DNA of 64,000 nt. Source: Roseiflexaceae bacterium. Its GTDB lineage: Bacteria; Chloroflexota; Chloroflexia; Chloroflexales; Roseiflexaceae. The stretch lies in assembly GCA_947474225.1 (NCBI GenBank), contig CANJHS010000001.1, forward strand, positions 1-64,000, read 5' to 3'. Each line of letters opens with the position of its first letter. Position 1 is the first letter of the stretch. The notes under the pieces are model-generated. The model made no database searches. It had not been told where the DNA came from and saw only the letters and a list, made by a program, of their open reading frames with translations. Shown here piece by piece: positions 57,218-64,000 of this stretch. The position numbers and the translations under genes are program-made.

Positions 57218-60016
57218 ATGTTGAGACGCAAATGTATTGCTTTGTTTTGTGGCTTCGCGGTATTTCTCCAGGCATGTGGTTCTGGGAGTGCTGCATTACC
57301 GACCATTCCTGCTGGGGAGCCGACTGCGGTACCCATTAACAATGGAGGCGCAGTAGCTACTATTTCGTTCGGCGTCTACGACTATGAACGCACCATTTAT
57401 GAAACCATCATTGACCGATTCAATCAAGAACATCCCGAAATACATGTCGTTCTGCTCCCCCTCGACGACATCACCCAGACATACCCCGACGCATCGGGGA
57501 ACTACCCAGCAGAGTCAACCACAAGCATGCTACGGCGCGTTGTAACGGCAGTCGACATTGCTCCTTCATATTTGGTGAACAAAGATGCCATAAATACCGG
57601 CTTACTCCTTGACCTAAAGCCATACATGGATGCTGATACAGCGTTTGACCGGACCGACTATATCCCAGGTGTCCTCGAACGCTACTCGAGTAACGAAGCA
57701 GTCTACAGTCTGCCCCGTGCCATCAACATCCAAGCGCTGAGTTTCAACAAAGATGTGTTCAAAAAAGCATCCATCCCGACACCCGCACAAAATTGGACCT
57801 TCGCGGATATGATTGCGGTCGCTGAACAACTGACTATCAAAGAAAATGGTGTGGTCAAGCAGTACGGGTGGTACGACGCCACCGGCGGCAATATTTTGTT
57901 TACCTTCCTCCTCGACAAAGTCGGTGTCGACACGCTCGGCATGAACCCTTCTGACTTAAAGGCAAATGATCCGAAAATCATCGAAGCACTGCGTCTCTAC
58001 AAAGATTACATCGATCGGGGAGTCGTGGTCGGCCCCAGCAACACCATGGGAGCTGGCATGGCTGCAGGCAGTACGGGCAAGGAACCGTCAATGCTAAACG
58101 ATCCTACCCAACTGGTTCGTGATGGCAAGGTTGCACTCTGGGGCGAATCGGCTATCTGTTGCGGTGACCAAGGGCAGGCTCTGACCTTTCCAATTGGCAG
58201 CGCAGTAATGCCCAATGGGACATATATCGACACAATGACGAATACCGAAGGCTACATAGTCAGTAGTGGTACCAAATCCCCTGCTGCAGCATGGACATTC
58301 GTCGAATGGATGACGCGGCAACCGATTCCCAATGATTCTAAGTCAACCAACATGCCCGGCTATCTCTACACCCGTAAATCACTCAATGCACAGTTCCCTG
58401 CGACAAACGCCGATGAAACGGCGCGCAATGAAACATATTTGTACGCAATCGCGCACTTCCCTGCAATGCGATTTACCCCCAATGGCGACTTTACTGTGTA
58501 TTACACAGTGCTGAATGCAACATGGGCGATGTTTGAACAAGAGCCTAAGACACCCCAACAGGCATTGCAACAAGTGTACGAAAACATGCAGTCTTCTATG
58601 AATATGACAAATGTAACCCCCAGTCCAACACCAGACTCGCGGCCGGTCGTTGTGGCAACTCCAGGAGCGCAAGAAGCCAAAGCAAATCAAACAACGATAA
58701 GCTATGCGGCCTATGGCCTGTCTGCAACAGACATTCGACGACAAATAAAGGAGTTCAATACAGCCGAGCCAGACGTTTTTGTCAAAATTGTTTCAACGGA
58801 CAACGTCACTACGACACTGACATTCAGCGACATGGCCAAACAAGCCGATTGTTTTTATTGGGGAGTGAATACCCCGTCGACTGATGCTGAAATCGCTTCC
58901 GTCATGGACCTACAGCCACTTATTGACGAAAATGGCACGATGGAGACACAAGATATCCCGCCGACGTTGTTTGGAATGATGACCAAAGACGGGAAATTAT
59001 TTGGTTACCCCGATACATACTCAGGACGCGGTCTCGTCTATTTCCCCGATGCATTCAAGAAAGTCGGCTTGGCAGAACCTACGGCAAAATGGACACCGGA
59101 CGATTTCTTGCAGGCAGCCAAAGCACTGTCTGGCAACGGCTCATACGGCTACTCGTCTATGGGGAACTATCTCAATGACATTAACTTTTGGGTCGGCCAA
59201 TTCGGTGGTGCACTGACTACCGGTGAAGGCAAAGATTTACGGGTTGCGTTTGGCTCTGCTGCATCGATCAAAGCTATATCGTGGTTCTTGGCATTAGCAA
59301 CGGAATACCACGTCATGCCGATGCCGGTGCTGTATTATCGTGTAGATTCAAACCCTTCGATGAGCGATCCAAGCTACGAGCTGCAGTCGCAAGGGAAATT
59401 AGGCATGTGGTTTGATGTTTCATTAGGCGGGTTTGATCCGATGAACAGCAATACTGATCCCACCGCACCCAAGACAATGCCTGCCAAAATGGCTCCTATG
59501 CCCATAGGCGCAGGGGGAGTCAAGTCTGCGGATGTGAATGTGTCGGGATTCCATGTGTCGGCAAATGCACAGAATCCGCAAGCATGTATGAAGCTCATTG
59601 AGTACCTATCCAATCAATCATCGGTGTTTAACTACGGCAGTATCCCAGCTCGGACAACGGCTGCAAACTCAGCAGTATTCGAACAAACCAATTCATACCT
59701 CATACCACTACGTGATGTGATGAAGCAAATGTTGGTCGAAAAGCCCAGCTACAACGGGAATCCCAATAGCTTCTACGCGTTCGAAGGATATTGGCTCAAC
59801 GAAGCGCTCGACAACATCCTCACCGCCAAAGCAGATCCAACGGTAGTCTTGACCAAAGCACAAGACACAACCAATGCATATCTGACGTGTGCAGCCAAGA
59901 GCGACCCGACAACAGGGAGCTTGCTTGCCTGTGCCAAACAAGTAGATCCTAATTACAAAGGATATTTGAGTGATCAAACGCCCGTTCCGCTCGCTGCAGA
60001 AACTCTCGCACCATAA
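57218..60016 (+). CDS. Lipoprotein with two fused extracellular solute-binding domains
   Basis: The 932-residue protein has a signal peptide and lipobox (FLQAC). Domain 1 (about 47-460) and domain 2 (about 495-900) each read like cluster-1-type sugar-binding proteins: FNQEHPEI and FNTAEPDV lines near their starts, SLPRAIN/FGYPDTYS hinge-like segments, and WTFADMIAVAEQL/WTPDDFLQAAKAL segments. A Thr/Pro linker (about 466-495) joins them. Two such domains in one polypeptide is rare. The gene is followed not by import permeases but by an HlyD-like adaptor and an FtsX-like permease. A weak AGGG precedes ATG 57218. Confidence 0.85.
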   Translation: MLRRKCIALFCGFAVFLQACGSGSAALPTIPAGEPTAVPINNGGAVATISFGVYDYERTIYETIIDRFNQEHPEIHVVLLPLDDITQTYPDASGNYPAESTTSMLRRVVTAVDIAPSYLVNKDAINTGLLLDLKPYMDADTAFDRTDYIPGVLERYSSNEAVYSLPRAINIQALSFNKDVFKKASIPTPAQNWTFADMIAVAEQLTIKENGVVKQYGWYDATGGNILFTFLLDKVGVDTLGMNPSDLKANDPKIIEALRLYKDYIDRGVVVGPSNTMGAGMAAGSTGKEPSMLNDPTQLVRDGKVALWGESAICCGDQGQALTFPIGSAVMPNGTYIDTMTNTEGYIVSSGTKSPAAAWTFVEWMTRQPIPNDSKSTNMPGYLYTRKSLNAQFPATNADETARNETYLYAIAHFPAMRFTPNGDFTVYYTVLNATWAMFEQEPKTPQQALQQVYENMQSSMNMTNVTPSPTPDSRPVVVATPGAQEAKANQTTISYAAYGLSATDIRRQIKEFNTAEPDVFVKIVSTDNVTTTLTFSDMAKQADCFYWGVNTPSTDAEIASVMDLQPLIDENGTMETQDIPPTLFGMMTKDGKLFGYPDTYSGRGLVYFPDAFKKVGLAEPTAKWTPDDFLQAAKALSGNGSYGYSSMGNYLNDINFWVGQFGGALTTGEGKDLRVAFGSAASIKAISWFLALATEYHVMPMPVLYYRVDSNPSMSDPSYELQSQGKLGMWFDVSLGGFDPMNSNTDPTAPKTMPAKMAPMPIGAGGVKSADVNVSGFHVSANAQNPQACMKLIEYLSNQSSVFNYGSIPARTTAANSAVFEQTNSYLIPLRDVMKQMLVEKPSYNGNPNSFYAFEGYWLNEALDNILTAKADPTVVLTKAQDTTNAYLTCAAKSDPTTGSLLACAKQVDPNYKGYLSDQTPVPLAAETLAP

Positions 60017-60031
60017 TCCTTGATTCGATAC

Positions 60032-60055
60032 GCCCTGCCGGAGTATCGGCAGGGC
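60032..60055 (+). promoter_or_regulatory. Hairpin between the binding-protein and adaptor genes
   Basis: gccctgccg and cggcagggc pair perfectly around a 6-nt loop. No T run follows. It may stabilise the upstream mRNA or reduce readthrough. Confidence 0.6.
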
Positions 60056-60082
60056 ATGGTTACGTTCTGTAGGAAAAATGAG

Positions 60083-61675
60083 ATGTTACGACATACACAG
60101 CATTGGCTTATTTGCAGTTTATTTGTCCTCGTGAGCTGTACAAATCCCACATCTACAGCTTCACCGACACCTACTGCAATACCCAGCGACGCCACATTAG
60201 CTGAGCCGACATATACCGTTGCATTAGGTACGGTAGAACGTGTCATCAATGACACCGTAACAGCTACTCCCGTCGATTCGAGCAAACTCGGGTTTGGTCG
60301 TGATGGAGTCGTCAGCGAAGTGCTGGTCGAGAGTAGTGCTGTCGTCAAAAAAGGTGACATCCTGGCACTCCTACAACAAACCGAGGCAGACGAAGCACTC
60401 CGCAAAGCTACTGATGATTTAGATATGGCCAAAGCCGATTTTGCGAGTGCCAAAGAATCAAACGACAAATTGATAGTGCTCAAGCGACGTGCGGTGGCGA
60501 CAGCGCGTACACAGCTCGATGAAATCCTGCCAGGCGGCACCAAAGATCTGCTCAAATCTGCACAAAAAGATTTAGACACCAAAATTCGTGCTGCCAGAAC
60601 AACCCAAGAAGACAGTGTGATATCCGTGGAAGACGCCGAGTATGCGATTACCACAGCTACAAACACGCTGGTAGATACCCAGTTGGCCTACAGTAAAGCA
60701 TACTGGCATGTCGACTGGGTCAAGCGCTATGGTACCGATCCTCTCGAACCATTCATCTGGTTCAACATGAAACGCGTACCCAATTACCTCGATGATGAAG
60801 GCAAGCGGGAATACGATAAAGCATTAATTGCTGCCACAGATGCGCTTCGCAGTGCAGAACGTGCAGTGAGTTCCGCACAACGTGCTTTTGTACGCGCAAA
60901 AGAAGCACGCGATGTCGATGTTTCGAACGCACTCGACGCAGTCGACACCGCGCGCCAACAACGCGATGCACTCCTGGCTGGAGATGACAATCCTGACATT
61001 ATGGCAGCGCGCGACACGCTCGAGACTGCGGAACTCGAGTTGTCGATTGCGGAAGGCAACACCTTTAAAACAGAACAAAAGGTACTCGATTCTGCACAAC
61101 GAGCCTTTGACAAAGCGCAAAAGGATGTCGATGGTGGACGACTCATATCGCCACGCGACGGGACAGTATCGTCGGTGAATCTCCTTCCTGGCAATATGGT
61201 ATCGGCATTTTCACCTGTCATCGAGGTCGCGGATCCAACACAAATCGAATTCCAAGCGAGTCTTGGTTCTGAAATCATGAAGTTACTGAGTGAAGGACAG
61301 AGCGCCGAAATACATCCAGTCGAACGACCAGATTTGATGCTCGTGGCGATTATTCGGCGGCTCCCACCACCATACGGAAAAGCCGGCGGTGCGGTGACCG
61401 ACATCGACCAATCGACACGATTCACTGTCGTTGATGCAAAAGACTACAACGTAAAAGCGAATGCGCGCGGCACCCTGAGTATAGTTATCGAACGTCACGA
61501 AAACACATTGTGGTTACCACCAGAAGCCATCCGAAAGTTCGGCGAGCGCGACTTCGTTGTTGTTCGTGAGGGGGCTATGGAAAAGCGAGTCACAGTGGCG
61601 ATTGGGATTCGCGGCGGTAATCGGGTCGAAATTTTGACTGGATTGCGAGTAGGTGATGTCGTCGTTGGTCAATAG
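60083..61675 (+). CDS. HlyD/MacA-type membrane fusion lipoprotein
   Basis: The 530-residue protein has a signal peptide with lipobox (VLVSC), then a Thr/Pro spacer. A lipoyl-like half (GVVSEVLVESSAVVKKGDILALL), a long alpha-helical hairpin (about 115-360; charged coiled coil), then the second lipoyl half (ISPRDGTVSSVNLLPGNMVS) and a C-terminal barrel follow. It bridges an ABC permease to the outside; the lipid anchor fits a monoderm cell. ATG 60083 follows AGGA at 8 nt. It overlaps the permease start by 20 bp. Confidence 0.88.
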   Translation: MLRHTQHWLICSLFVLVSCTNPTSTASPTPTAIPSDATLAEPTYTVALGTVERVINDTVTATPVDSSKLGFGRDGVVSEVLVESSAVVKKGDILALLQQTEADEALRKATDDLDMAKADFASAKESNDKLIVLKRRAVATARTQLDEILPGGTKDLLKSAQKDLDTKIRAARTTQEDSVISVEDAEYAITTATNTLVDTQLAYSKAYWHVDWVKRYGTDPLEPFIWFNMKRVPNYLDDEGKREYDKALIAATDALRSAERAVSSAQRAFVRAKEARDVDVSNALDAVDTARQQRDALLAGDDNPDIMAARDTLETAELELSIAEGNTFKTEQKVLDSAQRAFDKAQKDVDGGRLISPRDGTVSSVNLLPGNMVSAFSPVIEVADPTQIEFQASLGSEIMKLLSEGQSAEIHPVERPDLMLVAIIRRLPPPYGKAGGAVTDIDQSTRFTVVDAKDYNVKANARGTLSIVIERHENTLWLPPEAIRKFGERDFVVVREGAMEKRVTVAIGIRGGNRVEILTGLRVGDVVVGQ

Positions 61676-64000
61676 TAAGATCTATGCGTTCACACATGCG
61701 GTCGGTCTCTTATTGCGCGCTACTGTGCGACGTACGGTAGCATCACCGACTGCTACATTAGCGTTGATTTTTGCCTTGTGTATACCAATTACCCTGGGAA
61801 TTATCGTCCCGAGTTACGCAAATGCCGCAGGGACTCGCATTCTCAATAGTCAAATTGAGCGGCAAACGCTACAGACACAGCGACCAGCACTCGGCTTATT
61901 GTTTCGCTCGGTCCGCGGTACCAAACCAATTGCATGGCGCTCAGTCAGCGCCGGTGATGCCCTGATGACGCAGAACGCAGCAGCCTACCTACAAATACCT
62001 ATTGCCTCATTAACACGGCATATCCGCACCATCCCCTACGGATTCATGTCGGTACAAGGCAATGCAAACGGTACCCCACTTGGTACAGCCCCGATTGCAA
62101 CGCTGGTCGGCGTTGACGAGCTAGTGACCGTTATCAATGGCTCCCGACCTATTGCGGGCGGGACTCCGCTGCAGGCGATGGTTTCGCGGAGTTATGCAAA
62201 CGAAATCGGCATCAACATTGGCGATGAATATGTCCTCACTGCCAAAGATGGCCTGAGTTCCGTTCACATGATCATCGTCGGCATCTGGCAACCCAAAAAC
62301 GCAAAAGATCCGAACTGGCTTTATGATCCGGCAACGCTCAGTTCGATGTTCTTTGTGAACACCGAAGATATGCTGACGCACGTCGCAGAGGCGTTCCCTG
62401 AGGGTATTGCTCAGGCGGCGTGGTATATCCAGCCAGGCGACGTTCAGTTTGGACCAGGACAAATAACCACACTCGAAGGACGAATCCGCACACTCGCCCA
62501 AGAGATGGAGAAAATTCCCGCAAAACTCGAACGCAGCCCCTTAGCCAGCTTCGCTGCAGTCAATAGCACGATTTCGGATCTGACTCTCCGGACCGGCATA
62601 ATTTCGGCACCCATTGCCTTATTGGCATTCTTTTTTGTGGTGCAACTCGCAACTATCACCTATGAACGGAGACGGGACGAATACGCATTGCTCAGGAGCC
62701 GCGGTATGACAATACCCCGCTTACTATTGGTCGGCGGGGTACAGTGGTTGGTGTATATTGCAGTTGCAACCATTCCCGCTGTCCCTATTGGGCTGTTGTC
62801 GGCTGGGGTAATGTTGCGCACCCAATCGTTTTTGCAAGTGGGTGGTCCAGCCTATATGGTGCCTGGATTACCTGCGCAGGCTTGGTTCGTCATCGTCGCG
62901 GTGTGGCTCGTGGTTTTGGTGATCGGCCTACGCCCGATTGTCAATGCCAGTCGGCGAACATTGAGCGACAGCGGCAAAAGCCGGCGGCGTGACACATTGA
63001 CCGGCGTTGTTCGTGTCTTGTTTGAAGTGCTGGTAATGGTTGCAGTCGGGTACGGCTACTACCAACTGTATGGCGCCCAAGCACCCGAAGGCGACCTCTT
63101 TTCAAACCCATTGACACTTGCTTTACCGGTACTGACGAGTCTGTCACTTGCTCTCGTTGCGAACCGCATCTTGCCGCTTCTGTTTGCGGCAGGGCAACAC
63201 ATTGCCCGTAGGACTGATTCTTTGGTTGCAATTTTGGCATTGCAGACAATAGCACGTCGACCAGAGCGCCTCCAAACGACGGTGTTGTTGTTGACACTTA
63301 CATTGGGAGTAGGCGGGTATGTCGCCTCTATGGCAGCGACCGTCGATTACGCAACCGAGAACGGGATTGGGTATCGCACCGGAGCTGATACCATCCTCAT
63401 CGAGACCGCTTCCAGCAACCCTCCAAAAAACGGCGAAACGGCCAGTGGAAATGTCTATCTCTTGACACCAATAGGGGCACATAGCGGATTACCAGGCATC
63501 GGCAATTTTACCGCAGTTGGCACATACGAGACGCAAGTATCACTCGGTAACAAGCAGACAAATGCCAACCTGATTGCAATCGATCGTGTACACTTTGCTG
63601 CAGCAGTCCCTCACTTCAAAGACATCTGGTTGGGGGAAGGGAACTCATTTGGCGCATTGATGAATCAACTTGCCCAGGCACGCGATGGTGCTATTTTGAG
63701 TGCGTCGATGGCGGGCAACACCAAAATCGGAGACAAGATTGCAGTCACCTTCGAAATCGACGGGACGCAGGTCTCCTCCAAAGTGCGTATTGTTGGGATC
63801 GTATCGGGATGGCCGGGCCAATACGACAGCGAAAAGCCATTTCTGATCACAAACCAAAACTTCATCTCAGAAGAAATGGGATTCGTACCACCAACCGATA
63901 TATGGATGACGCGTGATCTCAGCATTGCAGTTACGACACTCGTCAGCGCTACCCGTGCCGTCGGAATTCCACTGCTGGATGTCCTAGACCGCCAGGATTT
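61656..64000 (+). CDS. FtsX/MacB-type ABC permease, cut by the window end
   Basis: The frame from ATG 61656 is open to the last base (about 781 residues shown). It begins inside the adaptor's last codons. A hydrophobic segment near residue 35 is followed by a large extracytoplasmic domain (about 60-300), then FtsX-type membrane helices with the inner motif YERRRDEYALLRSRGM (about 335-350). A second FtsX half begins near residue 530 (QTIARRPERLQTTVLLLTLTLG). Such duplicated FtsX permeases (LolCE/YknZ-like) work with a separate ATPase, not in this window. Confidence 0.87.
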   Translation, partial: MSSLVNSKIYAFTHAVGLLLRATVRRTVASPTATLALIFALCIPITLGIIVPSYANAAGTRILNSQIERQTLQTQRPALGLLFRSVRGTKPIAWRSVSAGDALMTQNAAAYLQIPIASLTRHIRTIPYGFMSVQGNANGTPLGTAPIATLVGVDELVTVINGSRPIAGGTPLQAMVSRSYANEIGINIGDEYVLTAKDGLSSVHMIIVGIWQPKNAKDPNWLYDPATLSSMFFVNTEDMLTHVAEAFPEGIAQAAWYIQPGDVQFGPGQITTLEGRIRTLAQEMEKIPAKLERSPLASFAAVNSTISDLTLRTGIISAPIALLAFFFVVQLATITYERRRDEYALLRSRGMTIPRLLLVGGVQWLVYIAVATIPAVPIGLLSAGVMLRTQSFLQVGGPAYMVPGLPAQAWFVIVAVWLVVLVIGLRPIVNASRRTLSDSGKSRRRDTLTGVVRVLFEVLVMVAVGYGYYQLYGAQAPEGDLFSNPLTLALPVLTSLSLALVANRILPLLFAAGQHIARRTDSLVAILALQTIARRPERLQTTVLLLTLTLGVGGYVASMAATVDYATENGIGYRTGADTILIETASSNPPKNGETASGNVYLLTPIGAHSGLPGIGNFTAVGTYETQVSLGNKQTNANLIAIDRVHFAAAVPHFKDIWLGEGNSFGALMNQLAQARDGAILSASMAGNTKIGDKIAVTFEIDGTQVSSKVRIVGIVSGWPGQYDSEKPFLITNQNFISEEMGFVPPTDIWMTRDLSIAVTTLVSATRAVGIPLLDVLDRQD

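Follow-up and report, generated by a model that had tools for sequence, protein, structure and literature searches.

A tandem solute-binding lipoprotein encoded with a MacA-like adaptor and a YbbP-like type VII permease in Roseiflexaceae

Introduction

What distinguishes type VII ABC systems from one another is the extracytoplasmic partner that takes or processes the extracted material, and in YbbP, one of their permeases, 10 transmembrane (TM) helices carry large domains between TM1-2 and TM7-8 (PMC12646458). In Escherichia coli YbbAP-TesA this single-chain permease is combined with two copies of one LolD-like ATPase and with a separate partner, an esterase. In MacAB-TolC a MacA adaptor adjoins an FtsX-type permease, MacB, in which the ATPase is fused to a 4-TM permease. 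Gram-positive forms (Spr0693-0695, YknWXYZ) have the adaptor without an outer-membrane duct, and their conduit was proposed to end in the cell-wall zone (PMC5985334). BceAB with BceRS ties a 10-TM type VII permease with one extracellular domain to signalling, sensing being done by a kinase complex. Solute-binding proteins (SBPs), on the other hand, are tied by reviews to importers (PMC8386196, PMC11466899), and tandem SBP domains occur in GlnPQ (PMC8025302). In the open-licence literature we found no report of SBPs with MacB/FtsX systems or of SBP-anti-sigma fusions, which is not proof of novelty.

The window analyzed here is the whole stretch of 64 000 nt at positions 1-64000 of contig 1 in a 2.97-Mb genome (87% complete) from a small-genome genus within the Roseiflexaceae (Chloroflexota), a lineage whose members live in lakes and hot springs. 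Three adjoining genes at its end encode a lipoprotein with two SBP domains, a MacA-like adaptor and an FtsX-type permease. Like YbbAP-TesA, the set has a single-chain 10-TM permease with two extracellular domains, LolD-like ATPases and a separate extracytoplasmic partner, but its partner is a tandem SBP where YbbAP has an esterase, it includes a MacA-like adaptor and its two ATPases differ from each other. With MacAB-TolC and its Gram-positive forms it shares the adaptor adjoining an FtsX-type permease, and with the latter also the absence of an outer-membrane duct; unlike in MacAB-TolC, the permease is a fused pseudo-dimer lacking the fused ATPase of MacB, the ATPases are separate, an SBP is present and the genome yielded no TolC match. 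BceAB resembles the set in its 10-TM permease, but the permease here has two extracellular domains, any sensing would be done by the SBP and the set of the window genus contains no kinase gene. Finally, the tandem SBP domains are as in GlnPQ and the sugar-type SBP fold is as in CUT1 importers, but both of these are importers with their own importer-type permeases, and no MalF/MalG is linked to the double SBP.

Results and discussion

The tandem solute-binding lipoprotein

The first gene of the set (57218..60016, plus strand) encodes 932 residues comprising a signal peptide with lipobox (residues 1-20), a first domain, a proline-rich linker and a second domain. The first-pass annotation, made from the sequence of the window, had read two binding-protein domains in this single lipoprotein, and Pfam agrees: SBP_bac_1 matches above the cut-off were observed at 57398-58318 (E 8e-17) and 58742-59614 (E 7e-16), and the lipobox is LQAC, with Cys20 kept in 39 of 41 aligned homologues. 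An AlphaFold2 model computed from 42 sequences (mean pLDDT 82.9, pTM 0.80) likewise bears out the expectation that both domains fold as complete binding proteins, as it contains two complete alpha/beta binding folds with the proline-rich linker between them. Domain 1 (residues 47-460, 57356..58597, plus strand) is delimited by Pfam, the model and its hhalign alignment to domain 2, the linker (residues 464-490, 58607..58687, plus strand) by conservation in homologues and domain 2 (residues 491-915, 58688..59962, plus strand) by Pfam and a structural match. The nearest solved structures are sugar and glycerol-phosphate SBPs. In a second structural comparison the matches listed were all to domain 2, which aligned to sugar SBPs with VIA Z 26, rmsd 4.4 and 366 aligned positions; domain 1, which weakly resembles UgpB, is therefore assigned by Pfam, by its homology to domain 2 and by the model.

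The two halves are homologous by BLASTP (E 2e-13) and by profile alignment (hhalign probability 100%, E 2e-61, 383 columns), from which it follows that the double SBP originated by tandem duplication. We considered whether domain 2 is a degenerate copy and rejected this: conservation of the two domains is about equal, with that of domain 2 slightly higher. Four cysteines of domain 2 (Cys545, 790, 891 and 905) are invariant in 42 of 42 homologues. Trp308 and Trp731 occupy equivalent positions in the two halves and are near-invariant among homologues, which makes them candidate cleft residues. In operon-linked proteins the linker is conserved above about 94% of domain stretches of the same length, and its conservation is ordinary in unlinked double-SBP paralogues; a docking site at the conserved linker is weakly hinted at by this pattern.

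Adaptor and permease

The second gene (60083..61675, plus strand) encodes a lipoprotein of 530 aa with an HlyD_3 match and the lipobox LVSC, whose Cys19 is invariant in 17 homologues. By profile comparison its nearest solved relatives include MacA (4dk0, 5nik, 3fpp). The permease gene (plus strand) starts with an ATG at 61656 (a GTG lies at 61653), overlaps the adaptor gene by exactly 20 bp and extends from 61656..64000 on to contig position 64463, giving 935 aa in total. Reading frames, sizes and order of the three genes are as initially described, including the MacA/HlyD-like and FtsX assignments and the 20 bp overlap. In the permease two FtsX domains above the Pfam cut-off were found, the protein being duplicated, and no ATPase domain. 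We modelled an orthologue (L105) that is 77% identical to the part of the permease in the window (pLDDT 78, pTM 0.71). Over the whole length its best Foldseek match was E. coli YbbP (9ge6, E 1e-21; also 9ge7), followed by BceB, LolC/E and MacB, and the 24 best matches were all YbbP, BceB, LolC/E, MacB or MacB-like. These matches (YbbP, BceB, LolE, MacB) support the mechanotransmission (type VII) class that had been proposed for the transporter. Extracellular domains lie at about 58-308 and 562-793 according to hydropathy and model; hydropathy alone yields 9 TM segments, the model helices allow 10, and both fit the published YbbP topology. Judged by motifs and models, an FtsX-fold permease with a large extracytoplasmic domain and a MacB/LolD-type ATPase partner would place the set in type VII.

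The set is flanked by genes for PEP carboxylase and an IlvD/EDD-type dehydratase, the latter at 64840 on the 3′ side of the permease. An ATPase gene and more permease had been looked for past position 64000. The rest of the permease was indeed there, ending at 64463, but an adjoining ATPase was not, and the IlvD dehydratase follows without any importer permease of the MalF/MalG/UgpA type, in line with the view that the two downstream genes do not form an importer. Beside the window set we found no TesA-type hydrolase.

Conservation of the gene set

The order SBP-adaptor-permease is kept in genus g1, Roseiflexus, AL-N1, OHK40 and others. The double SBP is present in the reasonably complete genomes of the window genus and in the other Roseiflexaceae genera, and adaptor and permease accompany it in every case in which the contig extends far enough. 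Because the trio recurs in this way, its association is not due to chance. The first-pass annotation had made conservation of the three genes elsewhere a test of its reading; the same order does occur in other Roseiflexaceae genera, while it is altered in the Chloroflexaceae and in one Herpetosiphonaceae genome, which also possess the set. In the Chloroflexaceae the order is ATPase-SBP-ATPase and the linkage persists. Mere synteny was rejected as a cause of the kept order, since the outer neighbours vary between genera (PEP carboxylase, a ~1,080-aa protein, a sigma factor, a two-component system) and the set stays. Among 400 Chloroflexota genomes the strict form of the family (E 1e-40) was found in Chloroflexales only. 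More distant double SBPs occur in the Anaerolineae; one of them adjoins the start of a MacB-type permease, and another is followed after about 1.4 kb by an FtsX permease gene.

We compared the surroundings of 46 distinct double SBPs. None had MalF/MalG within 4 kb on the same strand, and a type VII part was nearby in 20 of the 46 (14 of 20 among those with 3 kb on both sides). For the single SBPs in the same loci the picture was reversed, with MalF/MalG beside 10 of 13 and an FtsX permease beside 0 of 13. These numbers bear on the possibility that the double SBP works for a MalF/MalG importer whose genes lie at another locus, its co-transcription with adaptor and permease being accidental. Such a role would suit its fold and its nearest relatives, which are importer SBPs, and the genome does contain more SBPs of the SBP_bac_1 family at other loci. 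However, an importer permease adjoins none of the double SBPs, their type VII link outlasts changes in gene order across three families and the single SBPs mostly retain a MalF/MalG of their own. Because of these linkage counts we regard an orphan importer component as very unlikely.

A detached ATPase pair

In Roseiflexus the trio is followed by one protein of two fused MacB/LolD-type ATPases, and in AL-N1, G011 and others by two separate ATPases of this type; in G015 the ATPase genes come directly after the permease. In the window genus the ATPases are absent from the trio locus. The genome under study has a lone ATPase pair ~30 kb away on contig 1 (94228-95801) with no adjoining permease. 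Lone pairs share the contig of the trio in G010 and G002 and lie on other contigs in G009, G003, G006 and G008. Their Walker A, signature and Walker B motifs are intact, the best models for the pair are LolD/MacB/DevA/YbbA, and in the tree the lone ATPases fall on the side of the trio ATPases, a 100/100 branch separating them from the ATPases of a paralogous set. The analysis shows that the gene linkage is conserved, which folds the proteins have, and that an ATPase pair akin to the trio ATPases exists; the motifs and tree suggest that the lone pair likely drives the trio. A dead system for want of an ATPase was rejected as first choice, as a trio-type pair is present on the same contig. The paralogous set (adaptor-permease-ATPase-ATPase without SBP; contig 34, L087:6717-12987) may offer another source of energy if the trio shares its ATPases, but these form a separate clade. 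A third permease of this genome stands alone (L088:1396-4314). For annotation based on adjacency, ABC ATPase genes that have moved from the operon in one genus and are still recognisable constitute a trap.

The lone pair (L213:8228-9801) is located between ilvD and an MFS-like gene. Genes of the IlvD/EDD family adjoin both the trio (64840 onward; L002:7840-9807) and the pair (L213:6449-8131), perhaps as a trace of the rearrangement that parted trio and ATPases. At residues about 235-280 of the first ATPase in each pair (L213:8228-9106; also in the L084 and L087 ATPases) there is a conserved C-terminal extension, AGRLQIP...GGILIRP, which by eye looks AbrB/MraZ-type and has no Pfam match.

Hints of sensing

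In the metagenome-derived Herpetosiphonaceae genome MGR_bin415 an ECF sigma factor gene is directly followed by a fusion of zf-HC2, a TM segment and the double SBP (L128:9054-12538, identical to L100), and then by adaptor and permease. The SBP of this fusion is without lipobox and has the zf-HC2 domain (E 3e-4; 21.2 bits, just under the Pfam cut-off of 22.2) and the TM segment at its N-terminus. Going by its domains, the protein is built like a membrane-bound anti-sigma factor whose external sensor is the SBP. A histidine kinase and a response regulator are encoded divergently from the set in OHK40. The support for a sensing role is independent but thin, consisting of these two single cases.

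Both cases would also fit an SBP that is a sensor only, the ligand state setting expression or activity while the ABC part handles something else, as for BceAB with its kinase. We consider this improbable for the window lineage, in which the SBP is a lipoprotein whose only TM segment is its signal peptide, with neither a sigma nor a kinase gene adjoining it.

Proposed function

Taken together, our findings are best explained if the trio and the detached ATPases form an SBP-equipped type VII ABC machine of the MacB/LolCDE/YbbAP class, in which the doubled SBP is the dedicated extracellular partner that captures ligand and switches ATP-driven movement, and which is not an importer. We assign this reading a probability of roughly 55%. 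The permease, one chain of 10 TM helices that bears two extracellular domains, would be powered by the MacB/LolD-type ATPase pair encoded about 30 kb away and would carry the lipid-anchored MacA-like adaptor. The two SBP domains would capture a ligand outside the membrane, in the wall zone; their fold suggests an oligosaccharide, a glycerophosphodiester or a glycoconjugate. The ligand-bound SBP could then dock on adaptor or permease and switch on ATP-driven movement, so that the ligand would be either sensed or passed to the adaptor channel and pushed off the membrane. Gating of the transporter by ligand capture, and export of any substrate at all, are matters of inference; the movement may serve export, extraction or pure signalling. 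More tentatively, and at somewhat less than even odds, the set may represent a class of type VII machines in which the tandem SBP is an obligatory ligand-dependent switch, with extracellular glycan or glycoconjugate at either domain signalling to the YbbP-like permease and MacA-like adaptor and controlling outward work or envelope signalling instead of uptake. The sensor-exporter originally envisaged stands in its transporter class and has gained the thin support for sensing, but it had missed the ATPase pair, which is detached in the window genus.

A different division of labour would give the SBP the part of LolA or TesA, as acceptor or carrier: a glycolipid or glycan extracted from the membrane by the permease would be received by the double SBP, and the adaptor would act as chaperone or conduit. 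That a partner taking or processing extracted material defines type VII systems (PMC12646458), that the nearest permease is YbbP and that domain 1 weakly resembles UgpB are all consistent with this idea. However, SBP domains clamp soluble ligands and are without a demonstrated hydrophobic cavity, and the anti-sigma fusion favours sensing, so that we find an acceptor rather unlikely. If the SBP-equipped machine is real, an SBP serving as type VII extracytoplasmic partner would join the SBP and type VII schemes and would make available to mechanistic studies a type VII machine that can be addressed by ligand. It would also indicate that a phylum with a poorly understood envelope has a conserved envelope system.

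Cell envelope and stand-alone double SBPs

A search for OEP (TolC) gave no match in 24 of 26 Roseiflexaceae genomes, and the genome under study (87% complete) is one of the 24. Cryo-tomography of Roseiflexus indicated an apparent absence of an outer membrane (PMC7332563). With no TolC found and an outer membrane apparently missing from Roseiflexus, a conduit, if there is one, would lead no further than the cell-wall zone. Contig 131 (L247) of G004, an incomplete genome of the window genus, does contain two strong TolC (OEP) matches, while all others of the genus are without them; the matches are possibly contamination.

A few large genomes contain many double SBPs that stand alone with no adjoining type VII part, which implies that the SBP can act without the type VII machine. 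Such expansions were observed at L093/L136 (AL-N1), L133, L142 and L149, some of them in tandem. Among the expansions, one pair flanks a signal peptidase and an ABC exporter, and one has a split ECF sigma reading frame upstream.
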